Shown here in pieces: positions 13,460 to 15,955 of a DNA stretch of 42,826 nt. Origin of the DNA: a virus; the IMG/VR virus record IMGVR_UViG_3300042904_000219, positions 1 to 42,826 of that record. One strand, given 5' to 3'. Position 1 is the first letter of the stretch. Each line of letters opens with the position of its first letter. The translations under genes were made by a program, and so were the position numbers. The notes beneath the pieces were generated by a model. That model was not told the origin of the DNA. It was given only the letters and a program-made list of their open reading frames with translations, and searched no databases.

Positions 13460-13680
13460 ACTATTTCATCGACCTATTCGACGTCCAGGCGATCGACCCA
13501 GCGTCGATGAACTATGACGCGGTGCCGGCGAAGACGTGCCGCGGGTGCCTTTTCCAGCGGCAGTTCTCGCCAGTGTGCCGGCGGGCTGCGGCGCTGGCGG
13601 TCGCGGTGGGGAAGGAAGACTGCGATTCAGGATTCATCTACGTGAGCCGGGATGATCCGCGTCAGCTCACGATTGAATGA
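13456..13680 (+). CDS. Small cysteine-rich hypothetical protein (74 aa)
   Basis: Cysteines in CRGCLFQRQFSPVCRRAAAL and a later GKEDCDSG suggest a small zinc-binding fold of the CxxC-x(8)-C type; the end IYVSRDDPRQLTIE is typical of a phage family of unknown function. ATGA overlap with the methyltransferase. It is the last gene of the first early-right operon; the next promoter begins seven bases after its stop. Confidence 0.7.
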   Translation: MNYFIDLFDVQAIDPASMNYDAVPAKTCRGCLFQRQFSPVCRRAAALAVAVGKEDCDSGFIYVSRDDPRQLTIE

Positions 13681-13686
13681 TTTTGC

Positions 13687-13715
13687 TTGCGTATCGCTTC
13701 GGGCTTGTGTAGCAT
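13687..13715 (+). promoter_or_regulatory. Sigma70 promoter of structured leader
   Basis: -35 TTGCGT (13687-13692) and -10 TAGCAT (13710-13715), 17 bp apart. The -35 region TTTTGCTTGCGTATC is nearly identical to that of the promoter at 16165 and similar to that at 10861. The expected start is near 13722, at the beginning of the structured RNA. Confidence 0.65.
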
Positions 13716-13721
13716 TCGTTT

Positions 13722-13836
13722 TGTCGATGTGGCAGCGTTGACGAATAACCGAAGCCCTCATAAGCCTCGGCTCCTTCTAGGGTTAAATCCCAATCGCTGC
13801 CACGAGAAAGAGCCGATACTTCTGAGGGCTTTTTCG
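13722..13836 (+). ncRNA. Structured leader or small RNA with intrinsic terminator
   Basis: About 115 nt from the predicted start site to a U-run. AAGCCCTCA (13752-13760) pairs perfectly with TGAGGGCTT (13823-13831), continued inward by AAG/CTT and TCGGCTC/GAGCCGA (13767-13773 with 13810-13816), and is followed by TTTTTCG: an intrinsic terminator with a long arm. A second perfect helix, GTGGCAGCG (13729-13737) with CGCTGCCAC (13795-13803), crosses it in A-B-A'-B' order. GTCGATGTGG (13723-13732) can also pair with CCACATCGAC (13845-13854) beyond the terminator. This suggests either a small RNA or an attenuator controlling the downstream Rha and replication operon. No protein-coding signal is seen. 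Confidence 0.6.
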
Positions 13837-14086
13837 TTTCCGCGCCACATCGACTAGCCGCCTGTTGGGAACGCAAGCACCAGGGCAAGCGGCAAGAACC
13901 GGGACTGGGGCGTAGTGTTTGAAACACCGGAATGGGGCGTCGAAGATAGCACCCCAAACACGTAAGGCTGTCGGGTCAGCGACGTCCCACCGGATGCGTT
14001 GTGAAGGATCTAGGCTAAGTCTAGGTCCGCTCAGAGCCCTCGGATATACCTCTAACGTACTACCTTATTGGCAGATAGGAGAAACA
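13837..14086 (+). promoter_or_regulatory. 250-bp non-coding leader upstream of Rha gene
   Basis: No supported gene. Visible elements: perfect palindrome GTGTTT-G-AAACAC (13915-13927); a direct repeat of GGGGCGT at 13907-13913 and 13934-13940, 27 bp apart; hairpin TGGGG/CCCCA (13933-13956); a dyad GGA-CTAG/CTAG-TCC (14006-14028); and AGCCCTC (14035-14041), which could compete for the terminator arm GAGGGCT. No good second promoter is seen. The region may hold operators, an origin or a regulatory 5' leader. Confidence 0.45.
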
Positions 14087-14773
14087 ATGAATCACCTTAA
14101 CTTAGTAGCATCAGAGCAAGAACCACGGATGACCAGCAAGGAAATGGCTGAGTTGACCGAAAAACGGCACGACAGCGTAAAGCGGACCATTGTCACGCTT
14201 TCGCAAAAAGGTCTCATATCCTACCCACAATTTGTGGATGGGACCCCCGGAGCAAATGGCGTCTGCGAACGTGTCTATCATATCGGCAAGCGCGACTCTT
14301 ACGTTGTGGTTGCTCAACTCTCTCCGGAATTTACGGCTCGTCTTGTCGACCGTTGGCAAGAGCTCGAAGCGGCCGCGCCGGCCGTTCTTGACCTGAACAA
14401 TCCGGCTGCGCTGCGTGCCGCCCTGCTGGCCTACACAGAACGCGTTGAGAAGCAGGATGCGAAGATCGCGGCAGACGCGCCGAAGGTCGCCTTCGCAGAA
14501 GCGATCCGCGCCGTCGATGGTGTATGCAGCGTCGATAAGATTGCAAAGACGATCGGTATAGGACGTAACAAATTCTTCAAGCAGTTGCGCGACGATGGCA
14601 TCCTCATGCAGAACAATCTGCCTTACCAGAAATACTTGGACCGGGAATACTTCACGGTGATTGAGCAGGAACCCTACACAGACAGCAAGGGCGAGACTCA
14701 CCCGACGTTCACCACACGCGTGACGGGCGCCGGCCAAGTCTTTTTGGCTCGCAGGTACGGGAGCGCAGCATGA
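14087..14773 (+). CDS. Rha-type regulator with C-terminal KilAC domain
   Basis: A 228-residue two-domain protein. Residues ~14-90 match the phage regulatory protein Rha domain (MTSKEMAELTEKRHDSVKRT and a downstream YHIGKRDSYVVVAQLSPEF then LVDRWQELE). Residues ~130-225 match the phage antirepressor KilAC domain (APKVAFAEAIRAVDG, SVDKIAKTIGIGRNKFFKQL, VTGAGQVFLARRYG). Such proteins bind DNA and act as antirepressors or growth regulators. ATG 14087 has AGGAG six bases upstream; the frame is open to 13919 but lacks another good start. First gene after the structured leader. Confidence 0.85.
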   Translation: MNHLNLVASEQEPRMTSKEMAELTEKRHDSVKRTIVTLSQKGLISYPQFVDGTPGANGVCERVYHIGKRDSYVVVAQLSPEFTARLVDRWQELEAAAPAVLDLNNPAALRAALLAYTERVEKQDAKIAADAPKVAFAEAIRAVDGVCSVDKIAKTIGIGRNKFFKQLRDDGILMQNNLPYQKYLDREYFTVIEQEPYTDSKGETHPTFTTRVTGAGQVFLARRYGSAA

Positions 14774-15006
14774 ATAAGCGAACAATGGACATGCTTGAAC
14801 GCGCCTTCACGTCCGAAGTGAACGGCGAGAATCTTTTCCAAACCAAGTCGCGCCTGGCGGAAGTTCTCGCGGAAGACGGCTACCTGGAAGAGGCGAGCTA
14901 TACCATTGAAGGCCGGTTCCCTGTAATAGTTAAAGGCTATCGCCTCACTCACCTTGGCCGATTGACCTACTGCCTTTCCTGCGAGGACGATGATGCAGAC
15001 GCCTGA
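14770..15006 (+). CDS. Hypothetical protein (78 aa)
   Basis: A small soluble protein, helical at the start (KRTMDMLERAFTSEVNGEN) with a beta-rich centre (EGRFPVIVKGYRLTHLGR) and an acidic end. It may be a small winged-helix-like fold, but no family is recognised. ATGA overlap with the Rha gene and a 17-bp overlap with the replication-type gene. Confidence 0.65.
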   Translation: MNKRTMDMLERAFTSEVNGENLFQTKSRLAEVLAEDGYLEEASYTIEGRFPVIVKGYRLTHLGRLTYCLSCEDDDADA

Positions 15007-15955
15007 TTGGATGCCCACCGCCGCATGGGCCGGATTTGTTGAAATGCGCAGGAAGATCAAGAAGCCCATGACAGATCGCGCCGCGGATCTTATCATCATC
15101 AAGCTTGACGGATTCCGCGCTGCAGGCCACGACGTAGAAGCTATACTGAATCGGTCGGTGGAGAACAGCTGGCAGGGCGTCTTTGAGCCGGATCCCGTGC
15201 GCGGATCTGCTGGCGCTGCAGGTTCAAAGGTGCCGCACTTGGGTAAAGCCGGCCAGGCGACGGCGAACAGCGCGCAAGACTGGCTGGAGTCTGCACCCGT
15301 GGACAACGTGCTGGAGGAGAAGCGGCGGTTCGCGGCCTTGATCACCGGGCTGTCCGACTATTACAAGTCGGAGATTTCACGCGCCGTCCTGGGCCTCTAT
15401 TGGGAAGGACTGCGGCAATACGACTTCGCGGCGATCGAGAAAGCCTGCTGGGCACATACCCAGAACCCGGATACCGGCATGTGGATGCCCAAGGTTGCCG
15501 ATATCGTCAAGATGCTCGCCGGCCGCACCGATGACCAAGCGAAGATTGCCTGGGCCAAGGTGGACCGCGGCGTACGCTCGGTCGGTATCTACCAAGACGT
15601 TGCCTTCGACGATCCGATCATCCACCGCGTGATAGCGGACATGGGCGGATGGGTCGCGCTGTGTGGCAAGAACGAAGACGAATGGCCATTCATCGCGAAA
15701 GAGTTTGAAACGCGCTACAGGGCGTTTCGTTCGCGCGGTGAGATTCCGGCCTACGCCCCATCGTTAATCGGCTTGGCGAGCTCTCAAAACTCGTCCCAGG
15801 GCATGCAGCACAATGCAGGCGTGATGCTCATTGGCGAGCGCGAGAAGGCAATAGCTGTCATCAAGAATGGCAAGACCGGTTCGCTGCTGCAGCTGGGCAT
15901 GGTCGACGCCGCCGAGCTCACCTCGGGCCCTGGCAATCCCCCTCTTCTCTCTTGA
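14990..15955 (+). CDS. Putative phage replication protein (DUF6475-like C-terminus)
   Basis: The N-terminal ~65 residues (WAGFVEMRRKIKKPMTDRAA then LDGFRAAGHDVEAILNRSVE and WQGVF) resemble the helical segment found at the ends of phage and plasmid replication initiators and DnaT-like proteins. The C-terminal ~200 residues (LYWEGLRQYDFAAIEKA, MWMPKVADIVKML, FDDPIIHRVIADMGGW, KEFETRYRAFRSRG) match a phage replication-region family. No helicase Walker motifs are present, so it would be a loader or initiator. Start 14990 or 14993; both fit GAGG. The order of the two parts is unusual and the assignment is moderate. Confidence 0.6.
   Translation: MMQTPDWMPTAAWAGFVEMRRKIKKPMTDRAADLIIIKLDGFRAAGHDVEAILNRSVENSWQGVFEPDPVRGSAGAAGSKVPHLGKAGQATANSAQDWLESAPVDNVLEEKRRFAALITGLSDYYKSEISRAVLGLYWEGLRQYDFAAIEKACWAHTQNPDTGMWMPKVADIVKMLAGRTDDQAKIAWAKVDRGVRSVGIYQDVAFDDPIIHRVIADMGGWVALCGKNEDEWPFIAKEFETRYRAFRSRGEIPAYAPSLIGLASSQNSSQGMQHNAGVMLIGEREKAIAVIKNGKTGSLLQLGMVDAAELTSGPGNPPLLS

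Follow-up and report, generated by a model that had tools for sequence, protein, structure and literature searches.

In phages P1 and P7, the C4 antisense RNA lies upstream of the antirepressor gene in the same transcript, is processed, and acts on downstream translation. The replication attenuators of pT181 and pIP501 combine overlapping pairings that share a strand with a counter-transcribed RNA. In satellite phage P4, the excerpted text of PMC4825925 describes the CI RNA as an antisense RNA that pairs with seqA and seqC and thereby brings about termination. According to the same excerpt, a single promoter of IsrK (Gifsy-1) yields both a terminator-ended small RNA and readthrough to an antirepressor gene (PMC4825925).

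We analysed a viral DNA of 42,826 nucleotides (the window) in which a promoter, a crossing helix, a terminator and an outer helix lie ~0.25 kb upstream of a Rha/Ant gene (Table 1). The original prediction of an intrinsic terminator followed by TTTTT was borne out: the hairpin (13750-13774/13809-13829, then TTTTT; 13750-13834 as a whole), with a stem of -33 kcal/mol, sits between the promoter and the first gene, Rha. The predicted crossing helix GTGGCAGCG/CGCTGCCAC (13729-13737/13795-13803) is likewise there, as 9 perfect base pairs, and the outer helix reaching beyond the terminator is present but counts 11 perfect base pairs rather than 10 (13723-13733/13844-13854). The promoter is found where it had been placed (-35 TTGCGT, 13687-13692; -10 TAGCAT, 13710-13715; 17-nt spacer), but what had been called good is weak by consensus, at 7/12 and under our scan threshold. 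The site is nevertheless conserved, since class-A relatives (below) carry better hexamers in the same place, for example TTGACG-17-TATGAT in L206. In 8/8 class-A sequences a -10-like hexamer ends 6-7 nt ahead of GTYGATG, the motif with which class-A elements open. The RNA 13716-13842 folds at -50.5 kcal/mol versus -31.4 kcal/mol when shuffled (z -5.9, 0/200 shuffles), and the crossing duplex by itself also stands out (z -3.6, 0/300 shuffles). A candidate leader peptide (ATG TGG CAG CGT TGA, 13728-13742) was rejected: its frame is lost in relatives and no ribosome-binding site was seen.

Table 1 Features of the leader and first genes in the window
Feature	Position	Strand	Basis or remark
Sigma-70-type promoter TTGCGT-17-TAGCAT	13687..13715	+	Sequence; position kept in class-A relatives
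Strand X, expected 5' end	13723..13737	+	13729-13737 pairs with X'; 13723-13733 pairs with X''; covaries with both
T5, terminator 5' arm	13750..13774	+	Duplex with T3, -33 kcal/mol
GGGTTAAATCCC, small inverted repeat in terminator loop	13780..13791	+	Conserved in class A
Strand X', terminator loop	13795..13803	+	Crossing helix with 13729-13737; covariation
T3, terminator 3' arm	13809..13829	+	Duplex with T5
U-tract TTTTT, intrinsic terminator	13830..13834	+	Sequence
Strand X''	13844..13854	+	Pairs with 13723-13733 as the outer helix; class A only
Rfam RF02932 (Betaproteobacteria-1 RNA), separate module of the leader	13857..13976	+	70.8 bits (gathering score 49.4)
Stem-loop GGATCTAGGCTAAGTCTAGGTCC	14006..14028	+	Also present in the leaders of L007, L009, L109, L121 and L160
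Rha/Ant antirepressor gene, first in operon	14087..14773	+	phrog_63, E 4e-62; PF09669, PF03374
Replication initiation (O-like) gene	14990..15955	+	phrog_678, E 8e-19, N-terminal part

How does this locus compare with the systems above? Like C4, it places an RNA upstream of an antirepressor gene within one transcript and is proposed to act by complementarity; C4, however, is processed and acts on translation, whereas the element is built around an intrinsic terminator. With pT181 and pIP501 it would share a replication-gene leader, terminator and antiterminator states and specificity by RNA pairing, but its pairings cross (1:3 against 2:4) and an opposite-strand gene is not needed. With P4, as presented in the excerpt of PMC4825925, it has in common a replication-operon untranslated leader, premature termination and complementary strands within one transcript, of which one has two partners; X with X' and X'' are indeed such strands in one leader. 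The P4 effector is processed and is flanked by its targets (PMC4825925), whereas here the loop strand lies inside a terminator hairpin, and the order seqA-seqB-seqC is not reproduced, as the two-partner strand X of class A is 5'-most with both partners downstream. P4 itself (NC_001609) showed no crossing layout in its cI region in a relaxed scan with high background. Like IsrK, the element would give, from a single promoter, a terminator-ended RNA or readthrough toward an antirepressor gene, but what IsrK affects is how the readthrough mRNA is translated, and the excerpt describes no crossing helix for it (PMC4825925).

Within 13600-14120, no Rfam family matched the terminator element (E up to 1), nor did the covariance models of C4 and IsrK. 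In blastn searches, neither the window region nor two relatives found the element among annotated phages, nor did one relative find it among plasmids; blastn with L121 and L149 retrieved other sequences only, and a class-A query gave just short matches, in 1/399 genomes from a single bacterial order. Regulation by attenuators and by P4-like self-encoded RNA is already known; what is new here is that the helices cross and that the partner strands, described below, are hypervariable.

Relatives were collected by a Rha-based search and by pattern scans for the core of RF02932 and for two terminator loops. The Rha-based search yielded L007 and L009, both with RF02932, whose upstream terminators are unlike that of the window in sequence, each with a crossing helix of its own (CCGGTGAT/ATCACCGG and GACTCTGT/ACAGAGTC). 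The pattern scans gave 47 elements, of which 36, the window counted, are non-redundant and have a strong terminator stem; about half of the elements were recovered by patterns of their own loops, which leave the pairing partner unspecified. In 36/36, the terminator loop pairs with the RNA immediately 5' of the terminator, and the mean pairing energy is -27.7 kcal/mol for own partners versus -18.3 kcal/mol for swapped ones (0/20,000 permutations). The terminator stems contain 60 G-U pairs when folded as the sense strand versus 9 as the antisense strand (p 4e-5), a bias indicating that they are kept as RNA. For the crossing helix such a bias is absent overall (p 0.89); among long crossing helices only, the sense strand forms 350 pairs versus 277 for the antisense, 32 versus 13 of them G-U, which is moderate support for a crossing helix at the RNA level. 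When folded before T3 is made, 33/36 elements have at least 8 crossing pairs at minimum energy, the window being among the 3/36 exceptions, with 0 crossing pairs in its pre-terminator minimum-energy fold. The finished terminator averages -58.8 kcal/mol, versus -40.6 kcal/mol for the fold in which the 3' arm is still missing. Pairing of T3 with the U-tract in a local hairpin, which could mask the U-tract, was also considered and set aside: it is strong for class A (window z -2.8) but weak overall (mean z -0.9).

Class A consists of the window, L109, L121, L160, L202, L205, L206 and L210. Here X:X' has 94% pairing and three double-sided changes, and X:X'' has 100% pairing in the 8 sequences and likewise three such changes; at X positions 8 and 9, the three strands X, X' and X'' are altered together in L121 and L206. 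Thus, the compensatory changes looked for in relatives exist in both the crossing and the outer helix, and the fact that X has two partners, both conserved and each excluding the other, is strong sequence evidence that the leader would undergo structural exchange. X'' was rejected as a general feature, since it fails outside class A. In the window's class the crossing helix has 9 bp and linkers are present, so that crossing helix and terminator could coexist as a pseudoknot.

Class B (for example L131, L134, L216-L228, L237, L251 and L262) has a promoter near consensus, mostly with a 5' hairpin such as CCTGTGAAAAAGACAGG; this hairpin, whose loop is rich in purines, directly follows the promoter, is conserved in most transcripts of class B and is absent from class A. 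The framework of class B is conserved, with identities of 0.78/0.79 for the terminator arms, whereas Y and Y', the inner strands of the crossing helix, have between-phage identities of 0.47 and 0.45, the level of shuffled sequence. Despite this hypervariability, every Y is still complementary to its own Y', as in L218 (GTACATGG/CCATGTAC), L222 (TGCAAAAGGA/TCCTTTTGCA) and L251 (AAGCAATACGA/TCGTATTGCTT). The class-B crossing helix is mostly 17-26 bp long, with nearly no linker to either terminator arm. Pseudoknot geometry makes a complete pseudoknot of two such stems sterically implausible; given these lengths and near-zero linkers, the crossing and terminator states should exclude each other, an incompatibility that follows from geometry and applies to class B only. 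The original prediction had missed this hypervariable sister class and RF02932, and also that in related elements crossing helix and terminator are too long, and abut too closely, for both to be complete at once.

We then considered the genes downstream. Rha and an O-like initiator follow the element in the window and in L205, and a lone O-like initiator comes after Rha in L007. Elsewhere the element precedes helicase and primase (L206), primase/helicase (L120, L217), a primosomal protein (L226), RecE (L131) or a Mom-like modification gene (L099). These neighbours indicate that the elements are leaders of early, mostly replication-related operons; across unrelated contigs, the genes headed by the promoter/crossing-terminator layout are those of replication or of other early functions. 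A tyrosine integrase was sought in the window and none was found; we therefore do not claim temperate life, nor lysogenic immunity specifically, and regard replication dosage control and lysogenic immunity as equally possible.

With moderate confidence, we propose that a phage early (antirepressor/replication) operon here has a long untranslated leader in which the element serves as a transcriptional attenuator. The readings first offered included an attenuator or antiterminator controlling Rha and the replication operon, and this one is the best supported, by a layout that recurs in unrelated contigs and by helices that covary. Promoter position, terminator, crossing helix with its covariation, three-strand covariation, hypervariability and gene context are the parts of this model read from sequence; that the crossing helix lowers termination we infer, and, by analogy with P4 CI RNA, the terminated RNA may act on new transcripts in trans via the same complementarity, in dosage or immunity control.

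The proposed sequence of events is as follows. RNA polymerase would be expected to start near 13723 and to make X as the first strand, which would then pair with X', a later strand inside the loop of the downstream terminator. As the crossing helix can form before T3 exists, it would compete in time with the terminator; because the finished terminator is clearly more stable, antitermination, if it occurs, must be kinetic. Termination would release a short RNA of ~112-115 nt; otherwise, transcription would continue through RF02932 to Rha and the replication genes. After such readthrough in the window's class, X'' would capture X, closing the leader as one long hairpin, while in the sister class exclusion would be achieved by topology, not by strand sharing. 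The loop strand, exposed in the terminated RNA, could pair with the 5' strand of newly made leaders, which would favour termination and form a self-limiting loop like that of P4 CI RNA.

A more specific form of the attenuator is possible and is put forward only tentatively: an RNA immunity or genome-dosage system in which the terminated leader RNA would pair with nascent copies of the same leader through the hypervariable self-complementary segment and force termination of the replication operon, with the switch working through the crossing 1:3/2:4 topology, whose helices would not both be completed, instead of through a shared strand, and with the variable segment setting specificity groups. 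A sequence that changes freely while keeping its partner is the signature expected of self-recognition, as in superinfection immunity or copy-number control. If true, a set of uncultured phages controls early replication genes by an RNA switch whose layout is not in Rfam, and exclusion via pseudoknot topology is added as an RNA logic element.

Could the product simply be a stable, terminator-ended phage small RNA, with the crossing helix as part of its fold, other targets and incidental readthrough? The promoter and strong terminator do bound a compact, very stably folded RNA, and class-A linkers would permit a pseudoknot; a small RNA had been named as an option and is compatible with the data, since the terminated product would itself be one. 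As a full account it is nonetheless unlikely, because class-B helices, given their lengths and near-zero linkers, would hardly both be complete together, because hypervariable crossing strands are odd for a fixed fold, and because the element, where its surroundings are visible, always stands in a long leader ahead of early genes.

A second explanation is protein- or RNA-polymerase-dependent antitermination (N/Q- or put-like), in which the leader RNA, for instance the class-B 5' hairpin or the crossing helix, would recruit a factor that lets polymerase pass the terminator. Factor-controlled phage leaders also have a promoter, short RNA, terminator and operon in succession, and a 5'-terminal hairpin with a purine-rich loop opens most class-B transcripts. 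We find this doubtful all the same: the hairpin is missing from class A, the free sequence change of Y/Y' is ill-suited to a protein site, and no antiterminator gene was identified adjoining these leaders. The put-type (HK022) antiterminator proposed at the outset lacks support for the terminator element; if anything in the leader, the neighbouring RF02932 may be nearer such a promoter-proximal cis RNA.

It is improbable that the element is a processing signal, in which X:X''/terminator hairpin cleavage (e.g. by RNase III) would free the RF02932 RNA. In class A, X:X'' does close a long hairpin whose end lies 2 nt before RF02932, but X:X'' is missing outside class A, L202, L205, L206 and L210 have no RF02932 core downstream, and many RF02932 copies occur without the element. 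Finally, an ordinary terminator with chance complementarity nearby, to which the random occurrence of lone 9-bp helices and the 7/12 promoter might point, is very hard to believe against pairing kept across unrelated sequences, 0/20,000 permutations and double-sided changes.

An Rfam search, as suggested originally, returned RF02932 as the single family in 13600-14120 (E up to 1), beginning 2 nt past the outer helix. After the terminator element, RF02932 is found in some members and different leader sequences in others; since each also occurs without the other, the two are separate modules. Downstream of the U-tract in L202, L205, L206, L210 and L216-L218 there are several other leader sequences, perhaps further undescribed RNA modules. 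In L004, L103, L112, L124 and L125, the terminator element is absent and RF02932 comes directly after a sigma-70-like promoter, as expected of a promoter-proximal leader RNA. Among 399 genomes of the order of G001, RF02932 scored above cut-off in 5, one with more than one copy, a distribution that fits carriage on mobile elements.

We also examined contacts within RF02932, using 39 distinct sequences, a few of which may be false matches. One contact joins the second-stem loop to the sequence preceding AAGGCT (own -8.0 versus swapped -5.2 kcal/mol, 0/10,000 permutations) and is absent from the Rfam consensus structure; in the other, CGAAG-N-TAGC covaries with GGCTG-N', with standard pairs in 50/50. 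Both are covarying pseudoknot contacts. On the complement strand of L121 (~9290-8520), RF02932 and the first gene lie ~0.75 kb apart, and the sequence between them is apparently non-coding and may be structured. Other small RNA families occur near Rha genes, namely RF02278 (Betaproteobacteria toxic small RNA) and isrJ (RF01393), at L015:208-265, L017:82-139 and L020:3443-3521.
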